A stretch of 37,637 nucleotides of DNA. Origin: a virus. Position numbers and translations under genes: made by a program. The stretch covers positions 1-37,637 of IMG/VR virus record IMGVR_UViG_3300033388_004806. One strand, given 5' to 3'. Every line of letters starts with the position of its first letter. Position 1 is the stretch's first letter. Below the pieces are notes generated by a model that saw only the letters and a program-made list of their open reading frames with translations, was not told the origin of the DNA and did no database searches. Of the stretch, positions 4,493 to 25,996 are shown piece by piece.

Positions 4493-4658
4493 ACTAGTGC
4501 TACGGCTAATTAAGGATGGGAAAGATGTAGGGAGAATGAGGATAAGAAAATCCAAAGTTTCTACAAGCATGTTTATAGAGCAATCTCGTAACGATGATAT
4601 TTGGTTTTCTATATACGCTGAGCTAATTGACTATGACTCCTTTGAATTGCTAGTTTAA
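4479..4658 (+). CDS. Small hypothetical protein at end of rightward operon
   Basis: I place the start at ATG 4479 because GGAAGGAG at 4463-4470 has normal spacing to it. The upstream in-frame ATG at 4458 has no Shine-Dalgarno. The product is 59 residues beginning MVQTKLVLRLIKDG and is rich in short beta-strands. It overlaps the end of the preceding gene by 14 bp. Its TAA (4656-4658) overlaps the stop of the converging late block, so the two operons meet with no intergenic space. No family recognised. Confidence 0.65.
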   Translation: MVQTKLVLRLIKDGKDVGRMRIRKSKVSTSMFIEQSRNDDIWFSIYAELIDYDSFELLV

Positions 4659-7600
4659 CGCTCTTCCTCTGCTTCTTTCTTTAACTGTTTTCTAGCCTTA
4701 CCCTTACCTTTATCAACAGCCTTCTCCAAACCTTCTATCACCCTTTCATCATCATAAGTAGGCCACAGCCTGCGTCCTACTTCCTTCTCAATCTCTTCTC
4801 CTACATACAAAGCAGAAAGCTTCTGGTATCTATCATACCTTTCATCGTTAAGCACCCAGGTCCCAATCCTTCTACTCAATCCTTTAACCGTTATACCAAA
4901 GTGCTCTAACACAGCCTTATTCTCTTCAGAAAGCATATCACGGACATTTCTTTCTGCCCCTCTTTGCTCTCTAAACATAGGCCTTAGGTCTGGAATGCCT
5001 CTCCTTTCAGCTCTCGCTATCCCTTCTAACTTACCTATCTCACCGTGCATGCCTCTCACAAGCTCTTGTTCTTTAGGACTTAACTCATCCCAAGCAACTC
5101 CATAATAGTCATTAGCAAGCTCATCTTTCTTATTCGCAACGTCAGCCCAAGGAGAAGGAGGATAAGTCTGTTGACCAATGCCCAAAACGGATGGAATAGA
5201 CATAGCAGTTGCAGCAACCCCTATAGCTATTGGGTCTCCTACTTTTGACTTAAATATATGACCTCCCTCAAGTCTTTGAAATCTAATAACCTCAACTATA
5301 TCTTGAAAAGTCATTGGGCCCATCCGTTTCCACAATACATTGTCAAAAGCGACCTCAGCAACCTTCTTAACACTTTCCCAATCCATACGTAGGCCTTTAG
5401 GAAGAGTGAAAGACTCTCTGATAGATCTAGGCGTAAACTCTTCTCTTATCATAGTCTCCTCTGCTATTATATCTGTAACCCCTCCACCAAGTGGAGACAA
5501 CTTAGTTCTAAGAAAGTCAGTGAGCGTTTTTGCCCTTCGCTTAGTATATATATGACCTGTTGCTGTAGCCTTTCCTTTTCCCATTACCATCTGAGCAACC
5601 ATCCTAGCCATAGATTGGTCAGCTCCCCAATAGTTGTACCTCGTGTTGCCAATCTTGATCTTTCCAAAGTCGGTTGAGAGGGGGTTGTGCTCTACTTCTG
5701 CACCTCCAAGTTTGGCAAGACCCATAATAGCAAGACCAGTACCTACATATCTAACTAACCCACCAGCAACAATCTTGCGTACCTCTGGAGTACTTGTAAA
5801 CAGTAGCAATGGCATCTCGAATCTAGAGGAAGTATACCTTGGAGAGAAGAAAGCAGCGTTTAGTGCTGGGCCTAGAGCCTTGAGAGCTCCAAGTGATCCC
5901 CTACCACTAAAAACATTTATCATATGGGCTAGGCTCTTCTCTTGTGCCAACTTCTCTAATGGTGACAACGCTTCAAACCATATACTCCCGTCCCACTCTT
6001 GCCCTGTTATGTAATCGAAGTAGTCTGCCCTTAGCTTGTCTAAATAGATAGCATATGCTCTCGCTGATGCCCTAACACCAGGAATAAACTGAGCAAGCCT
6101 GCCCTGAATGGCCTCTTCCCTCATCCCAATATCAGCAGTGTCCCAAAACTCTGACTTAAATACACCGGCTTCAGCCCTTCTCTTGGCTCTAGGCCCCACT
6201 CTTAACAGCATATCCTGCGCCTTAAAGTATTCCTCGTTGGCGAACGCTTTTAGCTGAGTTATAAATGCCTCCTTAGCAATCTTTGGCTTCATTAATCCGA
6301 GTATAAGTCCCTGTCTTCCAGCTCCAGATAGATCCTCAGCAGTTAGAGTAGTCCTTGGAGTATTAGCTGCTTCTAAAAGAGCCCCGTAGATCTTAACGCC
6401 TGCAGGTCTCTTTGCTTCTAATGCAAATTCTATCTCAGGCCCAAACACTTTGGCAATAGATTTCATGTCATTTCCTCTAGGGACAACACCATTTGTTAGG
6501 TTGCTTAAAGCTCTACCTGCATGAACTCTATTAAATATACTTAATGGTGCAGCATGAATCCTATTAAATAGGTAATCTATCTGACTCCTAGGTAAGAGCA
6601 AGGGATCAATTTCCACCTGCGGCAACTTCTGCCCCGTTGTACTCCTTAAAGCTTCTCTATATCCAGCTTCCCCTGTCCCTGCTCCCCATATCGTGTCTAT
6701 TTGCAAGGCCTTTCGTTGAAGCTCCTTATGTGTTAGATCATCTAGTTCCTTTTTACTGACCTTGGTCTTCTTTACAAATTCTAGCAGTTTGCCCTCAGGC
6801 GTCTGAGGCATACCAGTTGCCTTGGGCATTCCAGGCCAAGGTGTTCCCTTTGTAGCCCTTGGGTTCTTACTCATATATTCCTGTACTAAAGGTATATGGG
6901 CGTCAGCATCCGCTAAAGCCTTTATCTCAATCCCCCTTTTCTTTGCAAACCTAGCAAACCCCTTGATATTTAGGTCTCCAGTATTAATAGCTCCACGAGC
7001 AGCATCGGAGCTAACAGACCATTTAGGAGGACGTTTGCCTGCACCAAAGGGAAAGAGGGTCATGCCTAGAGTTCCGCCTTCAACTTCAGTTCTAGCAGCC
7101 TGTTCCCTAAAGTACTTAGCCCTTCCCTCCTTACTCCTCATTATCTTTGGGATATCCTTGGAAACCTGAGCCTTAGTCTCTCCCCTCTGTATCCTCTTCC
7201 ATACATCTAGAGTAAGAAACCCTTTCTCTTTATCTGTAAGTGACTTAAACCAAGGAGCTTTCACAAGGAACTTTCCAGCACCAGCAACCTTACCAGCTGT
7301 AACCACCTTCCCTATAAACTCTGCAACCTCTGCCCCAGTTTTAACAGCCCCACCTTTAACGCCTAATACCTCTGGAAGACCCTTGCCTGCCCCAAACTTA
7401 TAATCAATATCTTCCCTTACACCAGCCGCACCAAGATTCATGAGTTCACTTATACCCATAAAAGTACCTACTCCAATCAAAGTAGGGATAGGTGCAGCAA
7501 TAGCTCCAGCAGCCACAGCAGGAACCAAAGCAGTTTCGACTAGACCTTTACCTAACTCTGGCAATGTCGGCCCTGTCATCTCTCCTCTAAGTCTAAGCCT

Positions 7601-7954
7601 TTCCTCTTCTGCCTCACTAATAGCAGTAGGCTTAGCCTCTGGAAAGTAAAGCTCTCTAGGCCCAACCATCTTCTCTCTTCCCCACTCATATGCCCTTTGA
7701 GAAATCGAAGGTTGTTCTACCTCTGATATAGAAGGAATCTCCTCTGGAGGGCCTTCTCCCCACGGATATACTGGAAGCCTCTCAGGCCTTATCCCCTCAA
7801 ACTCTTCCTCCGCTACAGCTGTACTAACAGCAGGCGCAACCTCCATTTCTGGAATAGCATCATAGCTCTCGTCTATCATTCCAGCTATTTGTTCAGGCGT
7901 TAAGCCATCTGGGATTTCCACTTCCCTCTTTTTGCGTGGTAGATATATTCTCAC
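4655..7954 (-). CDS. Large internal virion / DNA-ejection-type protein
   Basis: This 1099-residue protein starts at GTG 7954 and overlaps the previous stop as GTGA. It is the last gene of the late block. The N-terminus (KREVEIPDGLTPEQI) is a short conserved-looking peptide, followed by an acidic, proline-rich linker to about residue 135. A hydrophobic Ala/Gly-rich region follows at about 138-178. Further hydrophobic stretches lie near 733-750 and 904-924. A segment near 765-778 (FGKIKIGNTRYNYWG) followed by YTKRRAKTLTDFL resembles the C-terminal LPD38-type region of phage large polyvalent or ejection proteins. The C-terminus is strongly charged and helical (KGKGKARKQLKKEAEEER). Size, membrane-compatible stretches and position after the nozzle gene fit an internal protein injected with DNA, the role of T7 gp16-like proteins. 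No lytic transglycosylase motif seen. Confidence 0.65.
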   Translation of the reverse strand: MRIYLPRKKREVEIPDGLTPEQIAGMIDESYDAIPEMEVAPAVSTAVAEEEFEGIRPERLPVYPWGEGPPEEIPSISEVEQPSISQRAYEWGREKMVGPRELYFPEAKPTAISEAEEERLRLRGEMTGPTLPELGKGLVETALVPAVAAGAIAAPIPTLIGVGTFMGISELMNLGAAGVREDIDYKFGAGKGLPEVLGVKGGAVKTGAEVAEFIGKVVTAGKVAGAGKFLVKAPWFKSLTDKEKGFLTLDVWKRIQRGETKAQVSKDIPKIMRSKEGRAKYFREQAARTEVEGGTLGMTLFPFGAGKRPPKWSVSSDAARGAINTGDLNIKGFARFAKKRGIEIKALADADAHIPLVQEYMSKNPRATKGTPWPGMPKATGMPQTPEGKLLEFVKKTKVSKKELDDLTHKELQRKALQIDTIWGAGTGEAGYREALRSTTGQKLPQVEIDPLLLPRSQIDYLFNRIHAAPLSIFNRVHAGRALSNLTNGVVPRGNDMKSIAKVFGPEIEFALEAKRPAGVKIYGALLEAANTPRTTLTAEDLSGAGRQGLILGLMKPKIAKEAFITQLKAFANEEYFKAQDMLLRVGPRAKRRAEAGVFKSEFWDTADIGMREEAIQGRLAQFIPGVRASARAYAIYLDKLRADYFDYITGQEWDGSIWFEALSPLEKLAQEKSLAHMINVFSGRGSLGALKALGPALNAAFFSPRYTSSRFEMPLLLFTSTPEVRKIVAGGLVRYVGTGLAIMGLAKLGGAEVEHNPLSTDFGKIKIGNTRYNYWGADQSMARMVAQMVMGKGKATATGHIYTKRRAKTLTDFLRTKLSPLGGGVTDIIAEETMIREEFTPRSIRESFTLPKGLRMDWESVKKVAEVAFDNVLWKRMGPMTFQDIVEVIRFQRLEGGHIFKSKVGDPIAIGVAATAMSIPSVLGIGQQTYPPSPWADVANKKDELANDYYGVAWDELSPKEQELVRGMHGEIGKLEGIARAERRGIPDLRPMFREQRGAERNVRDMLSEENKAVLEHFGITVKGLSRRIGTWVLNDERYDRYQKLSALYVGEEIEKEVGRRLWPTYDDERVIEGLEKAVDKGKGKARKQLKKEAEEER

Positions 7955-9101: not shown

Positions 9102-12100
9102 TTAATTTGCACCAGCCGCCGTGCCTGCAAGAGCGCCTGCAACCCCTCCAATAACTGACCCAACTCCAGGAGCTATAGCAGTTCCCAGTTGCATACCTTG
9201 AGCAGCTCCACTAAACGCTCCACCTATCATGCTCTGAGTCTTGCTAGGCTTGTTAGGCCCCTGTATAACAGAACCAGTTACTGAACTCAACACATTACCA
9301 CCCATCTGAAATAAGTCCATATCCCACACAGCCGCTCTTGAATCGTACTCAAGGTTCTTCTCGTCCTCTTCACCTCTTGCTATAATTATAGCCTTCTGTA
9401 ATTCAGCAAGGAGTAAGGTAGCCGCCCTATGTGACTCAATCTCAAGGGAGCTCATATTCTGCAGTAGGGTTGTATGTGTATTAACGAACATCTGTTTCTC
9501 CCTCTTCTCCTCGAGCCTAGATTCTATCGTTCCTCTAAAGTGGTCGTTGAGTGTACTACCTGCTGCCTGAATATGGCCGAGGAAATCCCTGTTAAACACA
9601 TCGAGTTCTTTATCAGCAATTCTAGAGAAGACCTCCAATTTAGCGGCGAGCATATCCTTAAAGGCAGCCATCTTACCTTTGCCCATATTGCTAAAGACAT
9701 TAGCATTGTTTCCTTGTTGAGCCAAAATATCTACATATGTCCTGAGATAGGTATTAATTAACTCCTTAGCTTCCATAGTCTTGCTGTTAAACACACCAGC
9801 ACTATTATTTTGCTGGGCTATAAGTTCTGTATATACCCTAAGATACTTATCAACCAACTCTTTTGTTACAGCAGTCTTACTATTTCCAGCCTGGTTAGCC
9901 CCATCAAAGCCTGACTTAAACATATCCATTGAGGCTCTAAGTTGAGAACTAAGATTGCCATCATGAGAACTTACATAGAGCTTCCCTAAGTCTATTGCCA
10001 ACCTTTGTCTTGAATCTGCTAATTCTTTAATCATATTCCCTTGGAGGTTTCCAAAGTTAGCGGCCGACCCCATTCCAGCGTTGAATATTCCAGCTTCTGT
10101 GTCTATATAAGTTGTAAGCACCTGGGCATAGATTTCCATCTGCATCTTGCTTAAGCTATTAACCATAGACTGTCTAAGACCTACAGATGCCTGTATCATT
10201 CTGCTTTGCACATCTGAGAGTTGAGTCTCGGCATTCATTACATTGCCATAGATGCCTTCATACAATCTAGTCTCCAGCCCCATAACGGCCTTTGCATCTT
10301 CACTGTATATAGCCATCATATCTTTGCACATACCTACATATTCTACAAAGCCTCTCATATAAGATTCTATATATTGTGTAAGAGAGGTAACAAACATGCC
10401 TGTGATTGTGTTGGTACTATTGTTAGCTATACTAATCATATGACTCTGTTGAGCAGCATAGGTTTCCAGATAACTATTCATCACGTTCTTAAAGGTGTCA
10501 ACATAGATAGGGAAGGCATCAATATAGAGCTTAGTCTCTAGCTCTGCCTGATAGTCCAGAACCTTACCTTCAAACTCCGACTCCTGTAAGGCCATGCCTA
10601 TAATAAAGGCTGAACTATTAACAGCATTAACATCAGACATACCTCCAGCAAATCTATTAACAGACCTAAGATGTTCTGTCAATGCCCTTCGCCTGTATGA
10701 TGCAACTGCCTTAGCGATAGGAGCACTCTCAATTATTTCCTCTGCTGCACTTATAGCCATAGATATAGCAGTTTGTGCACCGGTCAAAGCGTCTTGCAGG
10801 GATGCCTGGATAAGAGAAGACACCTCTGGGGTAGCTCCATCCATTATATCTAGCATGGCCTCCTTAGCACTAGTTCTAATAGAAGACTCTGCACTTGTAG
10901 CATCTGTGAGAGCTCTTGTTCTGGCAGTATCTACTGCCCCATCCATAGTAAGCCCAGCCGAAGCCAGTGCCTTATCGTCAATAGTATCTGCATTAGCCCA
11001 ACCTTTAGCCAACTCTGCAGTAGAAAGAGCATCAGCGTGAGTTACCGCATCGCCTGCTGAGGCTTCTACAGCCTCCTGGGAATTGACCCTAGCAACTACA
11101 TCTGCTTTACTATCAAACGCTTCCGTTGTAGAAACAACACCTGCGCTTATGCTATCCATAGCAGACTCAGCATCATCCTCAGCATCGTCATAGATATTAT
11201 CGGACTGAGTCTCAGCAAGAGCGCCTGTTGTTCCTACCTTTGTATTAATATCACTTATTACATTATCACTCTCACTGCTGGCCCGAACAGCAGCATTTTG
11301 CACACGAGCTAGAACTTTCTCATCTGCCTTTACACCGACACTATCTAACACATCCTCGTTAGTCTTCATAGCAGAACTAGCTGCATCTGCAAGGGTAGCT
11401 ATCCCAGTCTTGCCATCGGCCTCGGCATCGGTGTATATAGTATCACTGGCAATTTCAGCCAGGGCTTCGTTTGCAAGTATTTCAGTATTCACTTTATCTA
11501 TCATGGCACTTGCAGCATCTAAAGAGTCCCTAGCCGCCTGTGTCGCACTAGAAGAGGCATCGTTCTGTGCTTGGTTAGACATAAAGGACATGGAGGTACC
11601 CAAGCTGTCATCATCCTCAACCATATCCTCTGCCTCTGCAATAGCCTTATCTACAGCATCCCCAAAGACATCACTAACGTCCGCCTGGGCATCTAATTCA
11701 AGAGAACCAAAAGCAGTTCTAGAATCTGCCATTCCCTCAGTAGCAGCAATCCTACCAGCAGTAGCTATACCTGCAAAGTCCTCAGCTGCTTTAGCCGCTG
11801 CATCTCCAAAGACATCTTCCACATCTGCCTGTGTATCAGTCTCAGTTAGACCGAAAGCAGTCCTGGCGTCGGTCATACCTAGTGTAGCTCCATCCCTTTC
11901 GTCACTTACCAGCAATGAGGAGCGGATATCTGCCTCTGCTTCGGCTGTAGCAAGAGCAGCAGACGCTTTAGCTCCAGCACGAGTTACCACACTATCCATC
12001 AGGTTCTCACCATCTAGCTTGGCGGTAGAATAAGCCTGTGTAGCAAGCTGTAGTGCTCTAGCTAAAGAGTCTCCAATGACGCCTGTAAAGATAGCATCAA

Positions 12101-12485
12101 CATCTAGTTCAGGCACCTGCCCAGTCTGCTCCGCCTGGGCTAAATCTAAGAAAGATCCCCAGTCACTATCCGAGTCAATATCATCAACCTTAGTCATAAA
12201 GTCATCAAAACTCTCACTCATCTCATCCAGTGCATCACCTGGGTTATAAGCGGAAACTCCCTCAAAAGGATTGCCTCCTACTCCAGTCAAACCCTTATCA
12301 TGTATAAACCTAAGCACTGATGGATAGTCGTCATAAGCTCCACCTCTATGATAAACATCATCAGCAGCAAGGCCATCCCACGTTAGAGGAGCTGCATCAA
12401 CCGTATAGCCACCGAGTATCAAGGCATGAGTATCCATCTGATAATCAGCCGTGCCCTGTGCAGTTCCACCACCTGAACCAGCCAT
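9102..12485 (-). CDS. Alanine-rich helical internal virion (ejection) protein with internal repeats
   Basis: I start this at ATG 12485 because AGGAGGT precedes it. The longer frame to 12524 would need a TTG without a Shine-Dalgarno. The product has 1127 residues, is very Ala/Asp/Ser-rich and almost wholly helical. Two copies of a roughly 35-residue unit with RTAFG and ADVxDVFGDA occur at about 203-282. A second pair of related units (SDTIYTDAEAD, SDNIYDDAEDD) lies further on. Two 32-residue units beginning KELVDKYLRVYTELIAQQ and KELINTYLRTYVDILAQQ lie at 875-906 and 907-938. The last ~42 residues are a Gly/Ala-rich, GxxxG-like hydrophobic segment typical of phage proteins that enter or cross a membrane. 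Context (after nozzle, before two more internal-type proteins) supports a DNA-ejection role. A tape measure is less likely because no long-tail genes are present. Confidence 0.7.
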   Translation of the reverse strand: MAGSGGGTAQGTADYQMDTHALILGGYTVDAAPLTWDGLAADDVYHRGGAYDDYPSVLRFIHDKGLTGVGGNPFEGVSAYNPGDALDEMSESFDDFMTKVDDIDSDSDWGSFLDLAQAEQTGQVPELDVDAIFTGVIGDSLARALQLATQAYSTAKLDGENLMDSVVTRAGAKASAALATAEAEADIRSSLLVSDERDGATLGMTDARTAFGLTETDTQADVEDVFGDAAAKAAEDFAGIATAGRIAATEGMADSRTAFGSLELDAQADVSDVFGDAVDKAIAEAEDMVEDDDSLGTSMSFMSNQAQNDASSSATQAARDSLDAASAMIDKVNTEILANEALAEIASDTIYTDAEADGKTGIATLADAASSAMKTNEDVLDSVGVKADEKVLARVQNAAVRASSESDNVISDINTKVGTTGALAETQSDNIYDDAEDDAESAMDSISAGVVSTTEAFDSKADVVARVNSQEAVEASAGDAVTHADALSTAELAKGWANADTIDDKALASAGLTMDGAVDTARTRALTDATSAESSIRTSAKEAMLDIMDGATPEVSSLIQASLQDALTGAQTAISMAISAAEEIIESAPIAKAVASYRRRALTEHLRSVNRFAGGMSDVNAVNSSAFIIGMALQESEFEGKVLDYQAELETKLYIDAFPIYVDTFKNVMNSYLETYAAQQSHMISIANNSTNTITGMFVTSLTQYIESYMRGFVEYVGMCKDMMAIYSEDAKAVMGLETRLYEGIYGNVMNAETQLSDVQSRMIQASVGLRQSMVNSLSKMQMEIYAQVLTTYIDTEAGIFNAGMGSAANFGNLQGNMIKELADSRQRLAIDLGKLYVSSHDGNLSSQLRASMDMFKSGFDGANQAGNSKTAVTKELVDKYLRVYTELIAQQNNSAGVFNSKTMEAKELINTYLRTYVDILAQQGNNANVFSNMGKGKMAAFKDMLAAKLEVFSRIADKELDVFNRDFLGHIQAAGSTLNDHFRGTIESRLEEKREKQMFVNTHTTLLQNMSSLEIESHRAATLLLAELQKAIIIARGEEDEKNLEYDSRAAVWDMDLFQMGGNVLSSVTGSVIQGPNKPSKTQSMIGGAFSGAAQGMQLGTAIAPGVGSVIGGVAGALAGTAAGAN

Positions 12486-12486
12486 A

Positions 12487-12648
12487 TTATACCTCCTCTG
12501 ACTCTCCTTCAGAGCTTGCACCAACTATAGAGGGCAGCTCGATTTCTAAAGATCTTCTACCAACGGTTATGCTCAGGTACTTGTCGTTAATACTCACATG
12601 AGCATCCGGCTCGAAAAAACTGTTAATCTTGTCCAGTAAGTCTTTCAT
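12487..12648 (-). CDS. 53-residue acidic protein, short gene
   Basis: A short ORF from ATG 12648 to TAA 12487-12489 encodes MKDLLDKINSFFEPDAHV and onward to an acidic tail GESEEV. AAGGAGG sits just upstream of the ATG. The last codons contain the GAGGAGGT that serves the next gene, and the stop is 1 nt from that gene's start. It fills the gap between the GNAT-like gene and the Ala-rich internal protein. The strong ribosome binding site and exact fit between neighbours support a real gene. It looks like one amphipathic helix followed by a beta-hairpin (YLSITVGRRSLEIELP). Function unknown. Confidence 0.75.
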   Translation of the reverse strand: MKDLLDKINSFFEPDAHVSINDKYLSITVGRRSLEIELPSIVGASSEGESEEV

Positions 12649-12663
12649 GTTATACCTCCTTAG

Positions 12664-13104
12664 TTAAACCTCCCAACCTACAAGCGTAACAGATGTATCC
12701 GCCCCCAAGTCTTTAGCAATAGTTAATATTCTTTTCACCTGTGTATAAGCTACCACCTTATAACATCCATTACCTTTAGCATATGCTGTTATTGTATTAA
12801 TAGCACTTCTCCATAAAGGCTCCGGCACAAAGCGATAACCAGACAGGCTATATATTAATAAGTTTTTAGTTCTAGTTGTTTCCTCAATAGTCAAAGTAGT
12901 TACAGCCATTGCATAAACTTCTTTAGCCTTCTCACCTTCTCCCATCAATACCCACACCTGACTTGTACCTTTAAGGACACTCTCCAATACATTGTTAAGG
13001 GACTCCTCCGAGACTTCCATCTGAGGGGAAAGTGTATATATTAAGTGCGCCTTTATATCAGACCAATACCTAGTGGCCTGGTCACTTGTTAGCCGTATCA
13101 GCAC
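12664..13104 (-). CDS. GNAT-fold-like small virion-associated protein
   Basis: This 146-residue protein starts at GTG 13104 with GAGGGGG at normal spacing, overlapping the nozzle gene by 23 bp. The pattern is a beta-sheet with V/L-rich strands (VWVLMGEGEKAKEVYAMAV), a central strand, and a C-terminal segment with CYKVVAYTQ followed by ILTIAKDLGAD and a final strand. It resembles the GCN5-like acetyltransferase fold used by small proteins near tail or internal genes in T7-like phages (T7 gp13 neighbourhood). The acetyl-CoA loop Q/RxxGxG/A is not clearly present, so enzymatic activity is doubtful. Context suggests an assembly or core protein. The fold assignment is by eye and moderate. Confidence 0.5.
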   Translation of the reverse strand: MLIRLTSDQATRYWSDIKAHLIYTLSPQMEVSEESLNNVLESVLKGTSQVWVLMGEGEKAKEVYAMAVTTLTIEETTRTKNLLIYSLSGYRFVPEPLWRSAINTITAYAKGNGCYKVVAYTQVKRILTIAKDLGADTSVTLVGWEV

Positions 13105-14668
13105 GTAGCCCCCTCACGGTTCTTTTGCCAGATGCCTGCCATCTTATATTTGCGTAATCAAGTTTCATATCTGCATACCTACTGCACTTTATAGCCAATC
13201 TAAATTCAATAGCCGTCGCTTGAACCCGAGCATAGCCCATATCATTTACAAGAACCCATGTAGAGCGAGTCCAACTTGCATCTTTATTATATCTATAATC
13301 CACTGCTACATGAGTAGTCGTAGGCGTATCAGCATCATAGTAGACTTCTATTCCAAGCTCTACAGTCGTAATAGTCTTGAGGTCTCTATACCCAAAGTCA
13401 ATAACGTCGGTTACAATTATAGGAATTGTACTTGCATCGGTATCAAATACCCCAAGCAGTGAACCTTCAAGAGGGAAAGCGCTGGTCACCTGCTGAGGAC
13501 TTTGACCTAAACCTTTCTCCGTTAGAATATAGGAAAGGATATTATTGCTGCTATCTTCCCCACTAATAATAAACTCGTTCTCGCTCTGATTGTAAGTAAT
13601 TACAACAGTCTGATCTACAATATCATCAAAGAACTCCTCATAGCCTAGTTTGCGCAAACTGAGGTCGCTCGCACTAATCCTCCATAAAACCCCAGATGTA
13701 TCCATGAATAAGTGGGTAGCTTCATCTCCTCCAACACAACCCCGTCCCGCGATACCAAAGGGTGCAAGCTTACGAAGTCCGAAAGTAGGATATGGGTTTG
13801 TAACACTAGGCAAGTATGCAATACCATCTTCTCCATAAGCCATAAATCCATTTCCCAAAGGTTTAACTATATAAACAGTTCCCTGCCAAGGCATAGGCAT
13901 AAAGCCTGCCTCATTACGTCTCCATAAGTCTAGGAACATTCCATCATCTACAGCCCTAACGTCTTCCTGTATGACACCTTCAACTGCTAATTTAGGTAAA
14001 AACAGATTAAGAATATCGCCCCCACCAATGGTAGTCCACATAACGAAGTTGCTATTAACATCGTCTAAGGCTGTATCTACAGCGAATGGCATTCTTCCTA
14101 ACCACTCATCCCATATAGATTCCCAGTCAGAACTGAAATAGGTAGCAGGATTAAAGCCTGCCATTATTAATCTACCGTGAAACTCACAACCAGTCTGAAC
14201 AGCAATAGCGTTCTGCACAAAGACCTGGTTCGTTTCTCCAAACATGCCTTCCTTATTAGTCTTAACAACTACACTAGTCCCATTGAATAGCATCCAAGAG
14301 TCGTAGAAATCTGCCATCTGCCAGACATCGGAACCTGTTATAGACTTAGCCGTTGGAGGGTCATTCAAGTCATATGTGGTTATAGCACTACTCAATGTCC
14401 AATTAGGACTTGCCTCTGTAACCGTTTTGAGAGAGGTAGCAGTCGCTAATAATGTCACTTCATTGCCCCTTATTATCTGGGCAAACGGCCATGTGCTAAA
14501 CTGCTCGTCAGTAAAAGGGTTAACCACAGTCTCACATGGTCTTAATCCCCATTCCTCAGGCTTTAGAAACTTGCATTGGGTTAGATACTTTGACCCTCTA
14601 CCGTGCCTACTGTTGGGTCTCAAGCCATTAACTAACGTTTCCCGTATCGGTAGTTGATATTCCTGCAA
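13082..14668 (-). CDS. Tail nozzle / tail tubular protein candidate
   Basis: This 528-residue protein starts at TTG 14668; GGGAG 6 nt upstream favours that start over any ATG. The chain is beta-rich with repeated strands and Trp-Asp clusters, for example VWQMADFYDSWMLFNG and DWESIWDEWLGRMPF. It includes blade-like units (GNGFMAYGEDGIAYLPS, ATHLFMDTSGVLWRI), as in beta-propeller nozzle proteins such as T7 gp12 or P22 gp10. It follows the adaptor gene with two very small genes between and precedes the ejection proteins, the expected order in short-tailed phages. No signal peptide. The assignment rests on size, composition and gene order; sequence identity to a named family was not tested. Confidence 0.65.
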   Translation of the reverse strand: MQEYQLPIRETLVNGLRPNSRHGRGSKYLTQCKFLKPEEWGLRPCETVVNPFTDEQFSTWPFAQIIRGNEVTLLATATSLKTVTEASPNWTLSSAITTYDLNDPPTAKSITGSDVWQMADFYDSWMLFNGTSVVVKTNKEGMFGETNQVFVQNAIAVQTGCEFHGRLIMAGFNPATYFSSDWESIWDEWLGRMPFAVDTALDDVNSNFVMWTTIGGGDILNLFLPKLAVEGVIQEDVRAVDDGMFLDLWRRNEAGFMPMPWQGTVYIVKPLGNGFMAYGEDGIAYLPSVTNPYPTFGLRKLAPFGIAGRGCVGGDEATHLFMDTSGVLWRISASDLSLRKLGYEEFFDDIVDQTVVITYNQSENEFIISGEDSSNNILSYILTEKGLGQSPQQVTSAFPLEGSLLGVFDTDASTIPIIVTDVIDFGYRDLKTITTVELGIEVYYDADTPTTTHVAVDYRYNKDASWTRSTWVLVNDMGYARVQATAIEFRLAIKCSRYADMKLDYANIRWQASGKRTVRGLRADTANK

Positions 14669-15957: not shown

Positions 15958-17277
15958 CTACACTTCGTTATTTTGACCTATTCCGTTCAAATATCCCCAT
16001 GTTTCAGGGAAACGAACTTCAAAGCCTGCTTCAGTAAGGTATTCCTCCTGCTTACCGTCAACTCCCGTTCCTCCACCCTTCTTATAAGTATTGTCAGGGT
16101 AGAAATCAGTATCGTCTATATAGCGCCATATAAGATTCTTAGGTTCTATAATGACCATACTATAACGGGTAGTTGCCTCATGTGTAAGCAGCGGATGAGT
16201 CTTGAAGGTAACCGTTCCGAATGGAAGTGTCCACTCCAAGATATTACTACCCCAAGTGGTTGTCTTAGGCGTAATGTTAGTCCACCCAACATCCTTAGCA
16301 AGTCTCTGGATTCCTAAAAGGGCTCCAGACCCCACAAAGGCCAGGCGTTCACTCCCACCCATACGGAAGATCTCCTCAAAATGCTCGTCGAGCCACCGCT
16401 CACCTTCCTCTAACCAAGTCTTTCCTGTATAAGTGGTGTCAGTATCAAGCGAATAATCTTGAACTGTACCATACTCTTTAATCCAGGAAATCAGGCCACG
16501 AGTAGCATACTTAGGCTTAGCGTTAGCACCAACTGCTGTACCGCTGGTTGAGTACATTGTACTCCAGAACAAAGACTGCTCAATCTCGATTGTGTGGTCT
16601 TCGAGAGCATCTCTCTTTGCCTCTAAATAGGCGTCAACGGTACGAAGCTTAGTGTTCATTAAGGTTCTCGACAAGTCGAGAGAGTTACGCCAAATCTGCG
16701 TATTGTTCTCAAACTCCGTCGGACATTGAGCGATAGCAGTCGGTCTAGTGCCACCCATAGCGTTAAGGTTACCAATGGTAAGTATAACATCCGCATCGCT
16801 CCAGTCAGTAGAGGTAGTCGTATTATCATCATCCTCCATCATCTTAAGAGCTATTACAGAACTAGCACCGTTTAAGATAACACTAGTAACCTCAGCTGTA
16901 GTATCCACGTTATAATCATTAGCATCTCTAATCATAACCTGTTTACCGGCCACAAACCTCGCTGCATTTGCTGCTGAGACGTTAGCAAACAAAGAGTCGC
17001 CAGCACTTCCAGTTCCACTAGAATAAGCAGTACTCAAACTGCTGTCGAGATACAACCCATCGTTTAACAAGGCCGCTCTTGCAGGCGAAAAGCTTTTAGT
17101 CCACCAGTGAAAGTGTGGAGCATCAACCCTCTCTTTTTTCATAAGAGCGGTTAGTCCAGTGAGTGGAGCCATGCCGTTGGGGTACATTCTCAATACCCCT
17201 GCTCGCCAGGACTCAGGATATTCATTGGTTACAAGGTCTTCAGTAGCCCTCATACCCACAAACCATGTATCAGCCAT
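15958..17277 (-). CDS. Major capsid protein, HK97 fold (SU10/DUF5309-like)
   Basis: This 439-residue protein starts at ATG 17277 with GGAG in the end of the zinc-ribbon gene. The central helix-rich segment CPTEFENNTQIWRNSLDL then LEAKRDALEDHTIEIEQSLFW is typical of SU10-type capsid proteins (DUF5309). So are the later RMGGSERLAFVGSGALLGIQ spine region and the YLTEAGFEVRFPETWGYLNGI C-terminus. There is no obvious prohead protease cleavage site or separate delta domain, which fits the separate scaffold gene at 19894-20826. It is the expected size for a T=7 class capsid subunit. Neighbours are a micro-protein upstream and the adaptor downstream. Confidence 0.88.
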   Translation of the reverse strand: MADTWFVGMRATEDLVTNEYPESWRAGVLRMYPNGMAPLTGLTALMKKERVDAPHFHWWTKSFSPARAALLNDGLYLDSSLSTAYSSGTGSAGDSLFANVSAANAARFVAGKQVMIRDANDYNVDTTAEVTSVILNGASSVIALKMMEDDDNTTTSTDWSDADVILTIGNLNAMGGTRPTAIAQCPTEFENNTQIWRNSLDLSRTLMNTKLRTVDAYLEAKRDALEDHTIEIEQSLFWSTMYSTSGTAVGANAKPKYATRGLISWIKEYGTVQDYSLDTDTTYTGKTWLEEGERWLDEHFEEIFRMGGSERLAFVGSGALLGIQRLAKDVGWTNITPKTTTWGSNILEWTLPFGTVTFKTHPLLTHEATTRYSMVIIEPKNLIWRYIDDTDFYPDNTYKKGGGTGVDGKQEEYLTEAGFEVRFPETWGYLNGIGQNNEV

Positions 17278-20826: not shown

Positions 20827-21118
20827 CTTCTTCCCCTTCTTTTTTAAGACTGTTTATTATAGTATCAGGCATAGATAATATGCACCTGAGAATGTAACAT
20901 TGGCCTTGGAGATAAGATATAGCATTTCTGTCATAGCCTTCTCCAAGTTGTTCTAAATCGTCTCTAGCTGCAATTAGGAGACACATTAGTTGGCTAGATA
21001 TGTCAATCCATGCTCTACTTTCCTTAAAGATTTCTATATCACGTTTTGTAGACTCGAAAGGCATATCACTACCTTTTTCCTCTATAGCCTTAAATAGCTT
21101 AATCCACTCACCTTCCAA
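20801..21118 (-). CDS. Small helical protein between portal and scaffold
   Basis: The open frame extends to 21280 but the first 54 codons lie inside the portal gene. I place the start at TTG 21118, because GGAGG with 6-nt spacing lies before it in the portal tail. ATG 21175 lacks a Shine-Dalgarno. The product is then 105 residues (begins with EGEWIKLFKAIEEKG after the start residue) and is predominantly helical with a short acidic tail (GEEDEPQHEES). It overlaps the scaffold gene by 26 bp. No family recognised. Its place between portal and scaffold suggests a minor head protein. Confidence 0.5.
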   Translation of the reverse strand: MEGEWIKLFKAIEEKGSDMPFESTKRDIEIFKESRAWIDISSQLMCLLIAARDDLEQLGEGYDRNAISYLQGQCYILRCILSMPDTIINSLKKEGEEDEPQHEES

Positions 21119-24100
21119 TAGCTTCCTCCATGGATACAAGGTTTCCTTTTTGAACTTCAGACGCAACTTCCTCATCTTGCATAACTGTTGGTTGCAGGCT
21201 ATCCATCTTCTTCTCAAACCTATGAAGGTTCTTAGCCCCAGAAAGCCTCGCCCAATGTTTGAATATTCTAACCACATCAAACCTTTCCATCAAGGCTGGA
21301 TTACCTCCAATCATCTGCATCATAGCTAACCACGCTTGGGGGTCTCCACTGGTAGGTAATGTGCCACTATGTGATACTACATTATACTTAATAAGAATAT
21401 CCATAGGACCCACCATAGCCCTTTCTTGAGCATCCCCAAACTCTCTACGAAGCACCTCCTCATGTTCACCCACTATAGACACATACTGTTCCTGAGTCAT
21501 AAATTGCTGAGTATGAGAAGCATACATTTCGCTTAAAGGATTTAAAGCCTGCAGTCCGATAATCATCGCGTGCTTTTCCATTCTATTCAACGCTGCACTT
21601 TGACGCCCTTGAAACTCAGAGGCACTAACCCTTTCCTTTTTAGACCCAACACCTCCCTGCAAGGCATCTTCAGCACCAGAGACTCTATCAAGTATTTGAG
21701 ATATAACGCCTGACTCACGAAGATGGTTGCTAGTTACATCTGTTACCTTAAGCTGTTCCATAAGATTTGCAACACCTTTGCCCCATGCCTGCCTACGGGT
21801 TCTTATTATCTTTCCAGGCTTCGGAGTAAGCAGGTCATTAACATTTACTGCCATAGGGTCTACCAAGAACATATCATGGATGGCCTTACGTACATTCTGA
21901 ACATGGCTTTGTCCTTGGATTGCAATTTTCCCATGACGCCTGGTAATAGTAAGGTGTGTAGAATTTTCAAAGCAATATACCTTACCTTCATATTTGTATT
22001 TAAAGCAGTTCCTCTGAGCTATTGTAGGGAAAGTCGAGGATGTAGATATATTTAGTCTATGAAAAGGCTTGCCTGCAGTTCCATAAGCGTTTTCTCCTAT
22101 CTCACCCAAATATACATGCGAGAAGTATCCAAGTCTCAGGGAGATCTCCTGCATGTCGTCAATGAGCTGCTTACTGGTAGAACTATACTGTCCTAAATTA
22201 GGATGGCTGTCCATCCAGCTTCCGTCCCCCCTCATTGCACAACCAAAGAACAACTCCAGATGGAAGATATCCCATTCCTTTATGAAGTTGGGAACCTTCT
22301 TATGCTCACTATGCGTCCCTCCACTATAACAGTTCTCCTTAAGCCACTCATAAAACCCTCTATGGGTTATCGTCCACGAAAAGGCATCCTTGCCTTCATG
22401 GTAACAGCGGGTCACGTGAACAGGAGAGCCAGACATTAAAAAATCAATATCATCGAGATTCTCATCCTTCTTTTGCTTAATACTTACACTGTAGCTCCCA
22501 CTAGCCTCCCCATGAGAAATGCTTCCTTCCGAAACGAACCAACCAAGAAACTCGGCCATCCAATACGCAGGGATCTCGACTGGTTTATCTTTTCTTCTCT
22601 CCCCACGACTTTCAACCCTAATAGAAGGAGGATTAATCTCCCCTTTCCAATTCAAGTTCCCTATCGTTTTATAATCAGAGGCTGAATCACGTCCAACAAG
22701 AGCCGCAGGCTTGAACTCCCAATCGCCCCTGTATCGCTTTCTAACAAACATATTATGATTTGGAGTTACACATATATCCATTCGGGAGGACAAAAACTGT
22801 ACCAAGTAGCCATCATAATCGTACTCAAACATCTGCTTTGGTTTCTCAAACCAGAACTCCAGCGTTACTGGGTCTACAGCAGATACTTCGTCATCTTCCT
22901 CTAATTGAGGAAAAGGCACCCAACCTCTCGACGTTAGAACTTCTGTCTCCTTATCATAGCAATTATATAAGAAGTTGATTAGCTTCTGAAGTCCATATAC
23001 GACTTCCATCTTGGAAATTGGCGTTATAGTATATCCATCATACTCTGGAGCGCATGTAACAATAGGGAACATATTATGGTCTAATTCTAGAGGATGAGCA
23101 GAGGTTATGACCTGGTCGCCGGTCAGACCAAACGCCCACTTCTCTGGATATTTACTCCTTCCTAATGCAGGCCCTTTGTCTCCTTGAGACTTCCACTCAT
23201 TCGGAATTAGATCTATATACATGTAGATAGTATCCATTCTGTCAGTGCTGTTAGAAGTGTTTTCCATACCAGAACTCACATCGAACCTATCACGCTCGGA
23301 CTCGTCTATACCGAGTGTACTCCTTCCATCTATATGACGCAAATACTTGGCGTTAAATGTATTCTCGTCATAGGCCTCTCTAGATAGTAACTCCATTCTA
23401 TTCTCATGGTTGAGCCATCCTACGTATTCACCCTTTTGAACATCCTGAATAGGATGATTAACATCCGGAAGGTAGTTATAAGGATCTATATTATGGAGTT
23501 CATTGCCTTCAAACTTTATTTCCTCGACTCTCTCAACCACATCTTCAAATCCAGTGAACCTATTAAGAAACGTCGAGAACACACCTTGCTGCCTCTTCTG
23601 CCTTCTCCAACCCATCCTTTGAGTCCATATAGGAGTAGCAGCACCAAACCCATAAGCGAGGGCATCCCTAAATACAGTATGAAGTTGGATGCCAGCACCG
23701 CTCTTTCTGGTTTGAAGCTCTACTAGTTTTTCTATCAATATAGCCCCAATCATGTCTTCATCTGTAAACCCCTCATATTGAAAGATAGGCTCTTCAAGAA
23801 AGGCTATAGTGAGATAAGAAAGAAGTGTCTCAATAGCTGCATAGGAAAGAGGCACTACCATCGAAACCGGCTTTGTCTCATCATCCAGAGCCATATTTTC
23901 CTCTACATCTGAAAGAGGTATATAGGAGGTTAGCGTCTCATCAATCTTGTTCCAACTCTCATATCTATTAGACATAGCCTCATGGCTCTCGTTAGCCCTA
24001 GCCATAATCTCACCCTTAAGAAACTCGTGCATATCACTGCCCGGTCTTAAATCCAAACCGAGTGGATATGAATATCTATATCTAACATTAAGCAAACTAG

Positions 24101-24149
24101 TCGGAGTCGGCTTGGTCTGACTTGGATATGGGTTTAGGAGTCTAGGCAT
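21108..24149 (-). CDS. Portal protein interrupted by a LAGLIDADG intein
   Basis: This 1013-residue precursor splits into a 662-residue portal plus a 351-residue intein (residues 397-747). The extein has a long N-terminal helical region (GEIMARANESHEAMSNRYES), a wing-like segment with ALAYGFGAATPIW, and the clip/stem region rejoined across the insertion. Removing the intein gives INFLYN joined to SHVQNVRKAIHDMFLVDP, a continuous sequence of the stem-helix type in short-tailed phage portals. That strongly supports correct boundaries. It forms the dodecameric ring at the packaging vertex and binds TerL, whose gene is directly upstream. A weak Shine-Dalgarno (TTGGTAA) precedes ATG 24149. Its 3' end overlaps the small helical gene by 11 bp. 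Confidence 0.9.
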   Translation of the reverse strand: MPRLLNPYPSQTKPTPTSLLNVRYRYSYPLGLDLRPGSDMHEFLKGEIMARANESHEAMSNRYESWNKIDETLTSYIPLSDVEENMALDDETKPVSMVVPLSYAAIETLLSYLTIAFLEEPIFQYEGFTDEDMIGAILIEKLVELQTRKSGAGIQLHTVFRDALAYGFGAATPIWTQRMGWRRQKRQQGVFSTFLNRFTGFEDVVERVEEIKFEGNELHNIDPYNYLPDVNHPIQDVQKGEYVGWLNHENRMELLSREAYDENTFNAKYLRHIDGRSTLGIDESERDRFDVSSGMENTSNSTDRMDTIYMYIDLIPNEWKSQGDKGPALGRSKYPEKWAFGLTGDQVITSAHPLELDHNMFPIVTCAPEYDGYTITPISKMEVVYGLQKLINFLYNCYDKETEVLTSRGWVPFPQLEEDDEVSAVDPVTLEFWFEKPKQMFEYDYDGYLVQFLSSRMDICVTPNHNMFVRKRYRGDWEFKPAALVGRDSASDYKTIGNLNWKGEINPPSIRVESRGERRKDKPVEIPAYWMAEFLGWFVSEGSISHGEASGSYSVSIKQKKDENLDDIDFLMSGSPVHVTRCYHEGKDAFSWTITHRGFYEWLKENCYSGGTHSEHKKVPNFIKEWDIFHLELFFGCAMRGDGSWMDSHPNLGQYSSTSKQLIDDMQEISLRLGYFSHVYLGEIGENAYGTAGKPFHRLNISTSSTFPTIAQRNCFKYKYEGKVYCFENSTHLTITRRHGKIAIQGQSHVQNVRKAIHDMFLVDPMAVNVNDLLTPKPGKIIRTRRQAWGKGVANLMEQLKVTDVTSNHLRESGVISQILDRVSGAEDALQGGVGSKKERVSASEFQGRQSAALNRMEKHAMIIGLQALNPLSEMYASHTQQFMTQEQYVSIVGEHEEVLRREFGDAQERAMVGPMDILIKYNVVSHSGTLPTSGDPQAWLAMMQMIGGNPALMERFDVVRIFKHWARLSGAKNLHRFEKKMDSLQPTVMQDEEVASEVQKGNLVSMEEAIGR
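21909..22961 (-). mobile_element. Intein with LAGLIDADG homing endonuclease in the portal gene
   Basis: The intein runs in frame from Cys397 (YDKETEVLTSRGWVPF follows) to Gln747, with Ser748 as first C-extein residue (TGC at 22961-22959; AGC at 21908-21906). Block A is CYDKETEVLTSRGW. Block B is VTPNHNMFV with T462 and H465. Two LAGLIDADG helices are visible: LGWFVSEGS (about 535-543) and FFGCAMRGDGS (about 634-644). The end is VYCFENSTHLTI followed by GKIAIQGQ. The usual His-Asn before the splice site is Gly-Gln here. Gln at the last position is tolerated in some inteins, but loss of the penultimate His is less common, so efficiency is uncertain. The endonuclease half looks full length. Confidence 0.9.
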
Positions 24150-24173: not shown

Positions 24174-25688
24174 TTATACATAAGTAGGAACTTCAAGTCC
24201 AGGCTCGGACTCTTTCATAAGCTCTTCATATTCCTTTTCTATATCTTCTGGATCTTCATTTTTAGGGGCAAAGTAGCGCTCACCATCTTCAAGTACAAAT
24301 ATTATACCAGCTAAAGCGTCTATCTCATCCCACTCAGCAGGCCTCGGCCACTGCATTAGGTTCTTCTCCAGAGAAGCACAAGGTACTCTATTATGCTTAA
24401 CATGACCACCTCTATACCAAGGAATAAGACCTGCACTTCTTTTAGCTCCAGTCTTACCCTGCCGAGGATTCACCTCAATGATTATGTAGTTAACTCCCCT
24501 TGCGTGCATAGCATTTCTGAGTGGCCAGGTGATATACTCGTGAAGAGCTGTAACTTCTGGAGCTAACACAAGGGCATTTAGGCTCTCAGCCATATCCAGC
24601 ATTCCATCATACAACTCACCAGGTGTCATTTGCTCTTTAATCACATCTCTTACCCAAAGCTTATGCTTCTTCATATTTACGGTTACGCCGACGATGGCAG
24701 TCTTAGCACTACCCTTTTTCATAGTCTTTGCTGGGTCAGAAAGGATAATGGTCTCAGCCTCAATACTGCTCATATCAGGGTCGTCTTCCTCATAATCAGA
24801 AAAGTATGCAGGCTTAAACCCCTGTTCATCAAGAGCTATAGGTATATTGCGAAATTCCCTGTAGAATATCTCACTCTTTCCAGCAGCCTTAAGCCCCTGG
24901 TGCAATTCCCTGCACTTCTCATCAGATATATGTTCAGGCCAACTAGATACGTAGTGGTCATTACATAGCTCAAGTTTAACCTTATACCAATCAGGGTACT
25001 TATTATCATCTAACAAATTAGCCAGCAGAGAGTCCTCATGTAGCATAGTGCCTATAACTACAATCCTCCAGGTTGGGTCGCTGAACTCTACACTGTGCAT
25101 AACTGCAGAAAGAAACCAGTTCTTTAGCTTCTCCCTTCTCTCCTCACTCTCAACCGCCTCATCGTTTTCTAAATCGTCTACGATATAAAGATCGGGCCTA
25201 TAATTCCCAAACTGTCTGCCTCGAACCTGTTGGCCTGCACCTCTCGGCATAACTTTAATGCCAGTTGAAGTGACCCACTCAAGCGTAGAGAATGAACCAT
25301 AGCTATAACCGGATGTCTTGATAGAGCCAAACACTGGAACAAGATCCTCGTTACTCATTAACTCCATCTTCAGGTTCTCAGAAAACTCAATAGCACTACT
25401 TCCAGTAGCAGATATGGGAATAATATAGTGCTTATCTTGAAAGACTATCTTCTTAGCCGGATAGGCCTTGTTGATAATAGATGTCTTTCCCCAACCTCTA
25501 GGCATTGCTATCACGAGCTTTTGAATAGTCTCATTATCAAGAGCCTTAAAGACCTTTGCATGACCTGGAGAAAAGTCCTTATAGAATGTCTTAGGCATAA
25601 ATATCTTGCAGAACTTATCCGTATGCTTATAGCAATCGTAGAGAATGTCCTCAGTTTCTTTGTCTACTCCCTTAGGGAAATAAGGCAT
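24174..25688 (-). CDS. terL: Terminase large subunit
   Basis: This 504-residue protein starts at ATG 25688, overlapping the upstream stop as TAATG, with GAGGT in the previous gene as Shine-Dalgarno. A longer frame to 25706 exists but lacks a ribosome binding site. Walker A is PRGWGKTS at 63-70. Walker B is DLYIVDDLEN at 166-175 with adjacent acidic residues. The coupling-type strand VVIGTMLHEDS is near 210-220. The RNase H-like nuclease begins at IILSDPAKT (D318) with LVLAPEV further on. The full ATPase-nuclease layout is present, so it should be the packaging motor. The portal gene follows after 24 bp. The candidate small subunit is 10 kb upstream, not adjacent. Confidence 0.93.
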   Translation of the reverse strand: MPYFPKGVDKETEDILYDCYKHTDKFCKIFMPKTFYKDFSPGHAKVFKALDNETIQKLVIAMPRGWGKTSIINKAYPAKKIVFQDKHYIIPISATGSSAIEFSENLKMELMSNEDLVPVFGSIKTSGYSYGSFSTLEWVTSTGIKVMPRGAGQQVRGRQFGNYRPDLYIVDDLENDEAVESEERREKLKNWFLSAVMHSVEFSDPTWRIVVIGTMLHEDSLLANLLDDNKYPDWYKVKLELCNDHYVSSWPEHISDEKCRELHQGLKAAGKSEIFYREFRNIPIALDEQGFKPAYFSDYEEDDPDMSSIEAETIILSDPAKTMKKGSAKTAIVGVTVNMKKHKLWVRDVIKEQMTPGELYDGMLDMAESLNALVLAPEVTALHEYITWPLRNAMHARGVNYIIIEVNPRQGKTGAKRSAGLIPWYRGGHVKHNRVPCASLEKNLMQWPRPAEWDEIDALAGIIFVLEDGERYFAPKNEDPEDIEKEYEELMKESEPGLEVPTYV

Positions 25689-25996
25689 TATACCTCGTGC
25701 TCCCACCCTATTCCATCTGTGATAGGGTTCAGTATCTCGATGATTCTATCAGATATAGTGTCACCTACATAAGCGACTGGATCTGTATCAGCTACCTGAT
25801 GAGGAGGGCCTCCAGATGCAAAGACTTTATCCAACGTATTTTTCACCTCAGCTGCAGACACGCCCTGGGCTAACAGTTGTACGCTAGTTCGACTTGCCGT
25901 TTCGTTCAGTTGAATCAGCTGGGTTACTAACTGCTGCACCTGCCGAAGCTTAGCTCTCCTAATAGCCAATGTTTGTGTAGTGGTTGTAAATGCCAT
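25688..25996 (-). CDS. Small helical protein upstream of TerL
   Basis: This 102-residue protein has GGGAGG before its ATG and overlaps the TerL start. The N-terminal 65 residues are helical and Gln/Leu-rich (LRQVQQLVTQLIQLNE) and could form a coiled coil. The C-terminus (SDRIIEILNPITDGIGWEHEV) is amphipathic. In many phages this place is taken by the small terminase, but there is no DNA-binding helix-turn-helix here, and a better candidate lies at 35357-35881. It heads a module right after a 23-bp palindrome. Function unknown; a packaging accessory or head protein is plausible. Confidence 0.65.
   Translation of the reverse strand: MAFTTTTQTLAIRRAKLRQVQQLVTQLIQLNETASRTSVQLLAQGVSAAEVKNTLDKVFASGGPPHQVADTDPVAYVGDTISDRIIEILNPITDGIGWEHEV

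Follow-up and report, generated by a model that had tools for sequence, protein, structure and literature searches.

A predicted mobile class 1 intein with a conserved terminal Gln in the portal gene of an uncultured short-tailed phage

INTRODUCTION

An intein with an atypical C terminus in the portal gene of an uncultured short-tailed phage raises the question of whether production of the portal is limited by splicing. The gene lies in the virus record IMGVR_UViG_3300033388_004806 of IMG/VR, whose whole stretch of 37,637 bases was analyzed and is termed the window below. A sequence-only reading had placed an intein in this gene, had noted Gly and Gln instead of the penultimate His and terminal Asn, and had proposed that C-terminal cleavage may be slowed and portal production thereby splicing-limited. 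Here, we ask whether the insert is a genuine intein, whether it moves among phages, and whether its ending is a handicap.

RESULTS

The insert occupies an exact site in an SU10-type portal

With the insert removed, the encoded protein matched the Pfam profile SU10_portal (PF23899) with 41.7 bits for a cut-off of 30, and the structure model of an intein-free relative, L001, resembled the portals of Vibrio phage VP1 (8zkk; Z score, 29.9) and of SU10 (7z44; Z score, 26.9). The profile match of the extein, together with the portal fold of this model, places the protein among the SU10-type portals and bears out its earlier identification as a portal. Elsewhere in the window, an 801-aa open reading frame (positions 356 to 2761, + strand) fuses uracil-DNA glycosylase (amino acids [aa] 8 to 152), 3'-5' exonuclease (aa 198 to 350), and family A DNA polymerase (aa 389 to 748). 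A PHROG search at an E value of 0.001 gave no match for the large open reading frames at 4655 to 7954, 9102 to 12524, 13082 to 14668, and 32184 to 34742 (all on the - strand; 528 to 1140 aa).

Comparison with intein-free homologues, which had been put forward as a check, revealed an exact empty site (LYN/SH, with the slash marking the junction). L001, a portal encoded on another viral contig, shares 72% identity with the extein over its full length and reads LINFLYN/SHIQNVRRAI where the window reads LINFLYN/intein/SHVQNVRKAI. This junction confirmed to the base the proposed boundaries, residues 397 to 747 corresponding to positions 22961 to 21909, and removal of these residues does leave a continuous portal. 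The additional claim that the restored segment is the portal stem went too far, as the site is placed only to a helix (residues 378 to 408 of the L001 model, with Ser at 395). In the intein-free sample, made of the best 80 of 490 portal relatives, none had an insert and 70 matched the motif N/[ST]H..N.R at the site. The site itself is well conserved, ranking 45th among 639 ten-residue stretches of the portals. The exact junction in L001, the lack of inserts in the 80 relatives, and the motif in 70 of them argue that the insert is far beyond chance.

Anatomy of the intein

The insert begins with Cys1 (CYDKETEVLT), a residue found in the same position in all eight other alleles described below, and its blocks F and G read KVYCFENSTHLTITRRHGKIAIQGQ, followed by Ser+1. 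Both LAGLIDADG motifs seen in the sequence-only reading are indeed present with their acidic residues (SEG in FLGWFVSEG and GDG in CAMRGDG), and the LAGLIDADG_3 profile scored 31.9 bits for a cut-off of 22.5 (Table 1). As is the case for class 1 inteins, the host protein is continuous without the insert, both in the empty L001 allele and in the 80 intein-free portals, and a cyclizing C-terminal residue (Gln) precedes the Ser+1 nucleophile in all nine alleles. The penultimate His, which is common in class 1 but does not define it, is Gly in the window; this is no bar to the assignment, because His is also absent from most related phage inteins and from published inteins that splice. A class 3 intein, which would have a WCT triplet and no nucleophile at position 1, was ruled out by Cys1; the block F Cys is Ser in two of the nine alleles. 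The NCBIfam model intein_Nterm scored 16.9, below its cut-off of 24.5. A structure model of the intein, of low confidence (mean pLDDT, 59.5), matched PI-SceI and TliVMA, which are homing-endonuclease inteins. Used by itself as the query, the intein sequence matched no solved structure in a direct search, and a profile built from six members found PI-PkoII. From its sequence features, we assign the segment of residues 397 to 747 to the class 1 inteins.

Table 1 Features of the portal gene, its predicted intein, and neighboring genes in the window
Feature	Positions	Strand	Remarks
Portal precursor ORF	21108..24149	-	1013 aa; extein of 662 aa once 351 aa are removed
N-extein	22962..24149	-	Residues 1-396; end ...LINFLYN
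C-extein	21111..21908	-	Residues 748-1013; starts with Ser+1 His (SHVQNVRKAI)
Intein, predicted class 1, with LAGLIDADG endonuclease	21909..22961	-	Residues 397-747; 351 aa; in-frame
Block A, Cys1	22920..22961	-	CYDKETEVLTSRGW; aligned across 9 allelic inteins
Block B (TxxH; TPNH)	22740..22784	-	RMDICVTPNHNMFVR; T and H invariant in 9/9
LAGLIDADG motif 1	22512..22556	-	AEFLGWFVSEGSISH; acidic residue E or D in 9/9
LAGLIDADG motif 2	22212..22256	-	ELFFGCAMRGDGSWM; GDG invariant in 9/9
Blocks F and G	21909..21998	-	YKYEGKVYCFENSTHLTITRRHGKIAIQGQ; FENSTHL invariant in 9/9
Penultimate Gly and terminal Gln	21909..21914	-	GGA CAA; Gln in 9/9 alleles, Gly in 8/9
Terminase large subunit, without intein	24174..25706	-	Upstream neighbor of the portal; PHROG 38, E 3e-67
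SU10-type major capsid protein	15958..17277	-	In the gene block of the portal; PF17236, E 4e-26

An allelic family under purifying selection

Scans of viral contigs yielded eight more portals (L094 to L098 and L180 to L182) that are interrupted by an intein at the same point, N/SH(I/V)ANVRK. These inteins are 41 to 62% identical to that of the window, and, with the latter included, all nine end in Gln, eight of them as Gly-Gln and one as Ser-Gln, with CAA and CAG codons mixed. The Ser-Gln ending belongs to L182 (3001 to 4044), the most divergent portal allele found. A scan of the genome collection gave distant inteins only, ~22 to 31% identical over full-length matches, and our literature search found no paper on this portal intein family. 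The allelic family, the conservation of its Gln, and its scatter among portals are new.

The allelic inteins are under purifying selection: pN is well below pS in both the endonuclease and the splicing regions (0.13 versus 0.72 for L095 and L097), although these figures are rough, as synonymous sites are near saturation. Such selection is hard to reconcile with a decaying or cleavage-only element, in which splicing would be lost and the portal cut or inactive. The nucleophiles at positions 1 and +1, the TxxH motif, and both endonuclease acidic residues are retained in all nine alleles, and the frame of the precursor is open over 1013 codons. Furthermore, the portal is presumably essential, so that a phage whose intein no longer spliced would not survive. 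We therefore regard decay as highly improbable, despite the atypical terminal residue and the weak score on the standard model of intein N termini.

Distribution of the intein among portals

We looked into the distribution of the intein in a tree of 88 portals, in which six intein carriers were tested. Each of the six carriers occupied a branch of its own, surrounded by empty alleles, with well-supported forks forcing at least six changes, and their inteins formed a single clade (support, 100/100). The nearest portal relative of the window in this tree has an empty site. Between the window and L094 to L097, the inteins are 57 to 62% identical and the exteins 43 to 45%, an excess of 14 to 18 points for the inteins. 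Because the inteins are more alike than the portals and the nearest portal relative is empty, these data point to horizontal transfer into one fixed site, which is what homing would produce, and the scatter is likewise the pattern expected of it. The same observations make it unlikely that the scatter results from vertical inheritance with many losses, a scenario that finds its support in L098, L180, and L181. In the subgroup that these form with L182, the inteins show no clear excess of similarity over the exteins, and the values for L098, L180, and L181 agree with each other (~67% for the inteins, 62 to 69% for the exteins), which is compatible with vertical descent of these three.

Bearing of the Gly-Gln ending on splicing

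The ending of the intein is Gly-Gln, as had been read from the sequence, but its description as a defective replacement of His-Asn does not fit the related inteins. Among the best 80 intein matches on viral contigs, 68 end in Gly-Asn and 6 in Gly-Gln (5 of these being portal alleles), with the ends read automatically at the splice site, in a few cases wrongly. A second set of inteins has Gln endings in other genes, for example, CGQ/T in L203 and L213 and a similar ending in L199. In these three inteins, all on viral contigs, Cys-Gly-Gln stands before (S/T)MD(E/D)T, a sequence similar to that of a terminase nuclease domain. Judging from these sets, penultimate Gly is usual among related phage inteins, and Gln is a minority ending that recurs and that is fixed in the portal family. 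The NrdA intein of phiCbK (L174 85 to 1005, - strand), whose C terminus is described as Gly-Gln in PMC3556154, was rejected as a precedent, since its GenBank sequence ends in ...YLTGN/C and thus in Gly-Asn.

If Gly-Gln made C-terminal cleavage rate-limiting, splicing could time portal production. The Pol II inteins of P. abyssi and M. marisnigri are slow with their native Gln and gain speed with Asn (PMC4031507), but a passage of the same paper, reporting Amitai et al. (2004), has the RNR intein of CIV (invertebrate iridescent virus 6) losing splicing efficiency when Asn takes the place of its native Gln, so the terminal residue alone does not settle the splicing rate. Similarly, changes at the penultimate residue shift the splicing rate of a phage intein, yet the mycobacteriophage RDF intein in question splices fully with its native Gly and is slowed by a Gly-to-His change (PMC5050341). 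In the portal family, Gln is kept in all nine alleles across a divergence down to ~41% identity, which would have left time for any initial defect to be compensated. Moreover, many portals of this clade do without the intein, so a regulatory need is not apparent. By analogy with the published inteins, Gly-Gln need not imply slow splicing. Given the CIV RNR and RDF data and the recurrence and fixation of Gln in the portal alleles, the proposals of slowed cleavage and splicing-limited portal production find no support, and we consider a timing role improbable.

DISCUSSION

We propose with high confidence that the insert is a mobile class 1 intein at a fixed, well-conserved N/S-H site of SU10-type portals, predicted both to splice and to home. 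Cys1 would attack the N-terminal splice bond and Ser+1 would take over the N-extein, after which the terminal Gln would cyclize, forming a glutarimide in place of a succinimide and setting the intein free; ligation of the exteins would then yield a normal portal of 662 aa. The LAGLIDADG domain would cut the intein-free portal genes of co-infecting phages, into which the intein would be copied. We infer that the intein splices, efficiently rather than slowly, and that its endonuclease cuts DNA; the element is a real and very probably functional mobile intein. Since all eight relatives at the same site share the Gln ending, the portal intein has the look of a selfish element that works and spreads, rather than of a handicapped one. 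A more specific hypothesis, which we put forward tentatively, is that this lineage fixed its C-terminal Gln, became specialized for Gln cyclization with the invariant block F His (FENSTHL), and homes repeatedly among the portals of distantly related short-tailed phages.

This family leaves the overall view of phage inteins unchanged. Nevertheless, nine allelic Gln-ending inteins and many empty siblings, including one pair (L096 with the intein and L077 with the exact empty site) that is ~86% identical in flanking DNA, constitute a natural series. It can be used to tell slow from well-adapted splicing in inteins that end in Gln and to follow the spread of homing in a virion gene that is essential.

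Both portal inteins (PMC5050341) and Gln-ending inteins (PMC4031507) were already known. Six portal inteins (POG1190) are catalogued in the cluster C1 mycobacteriophages (PMC5050341), contrary to the view that the portal is an unusual host for an intein; they likewise reside in a phage portal gene, in phages of another lineage. The GX15bay "portal" intein was set aside, as the intein is present but its flanks are not portal-like. Another portal intein, in L011/L124 (a 168-kb viral contig; L011 4053 to 7253), is 34 to 37% identical to that of the window and also ends in Gly-Gln, but it occupies a different site in a portal of another family (PHROG 16240) and is followed by Thr+1. In L171, an intein starts at the same site as in L011/L124. 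The CIV RNR intein shares with the window a native C-terminal Gln and differs in its host protein and virus. We take its penultimate residue to be Gly. A passage of PMC3556154 remarks on a Gly at this position. Finally, the Gly-Asn phage LAGLIDADG inteins have the same architecture and penultimate Gly as the window intein, to which they are ~24 to 26% identical over the full length, but they end in Asn and reside in other genes, those of cultured phages (Gordonia GMA6 TerL, a mycobacteriophage nucleotidyltransferase, and Tenacibaculum PTm1 RNR).
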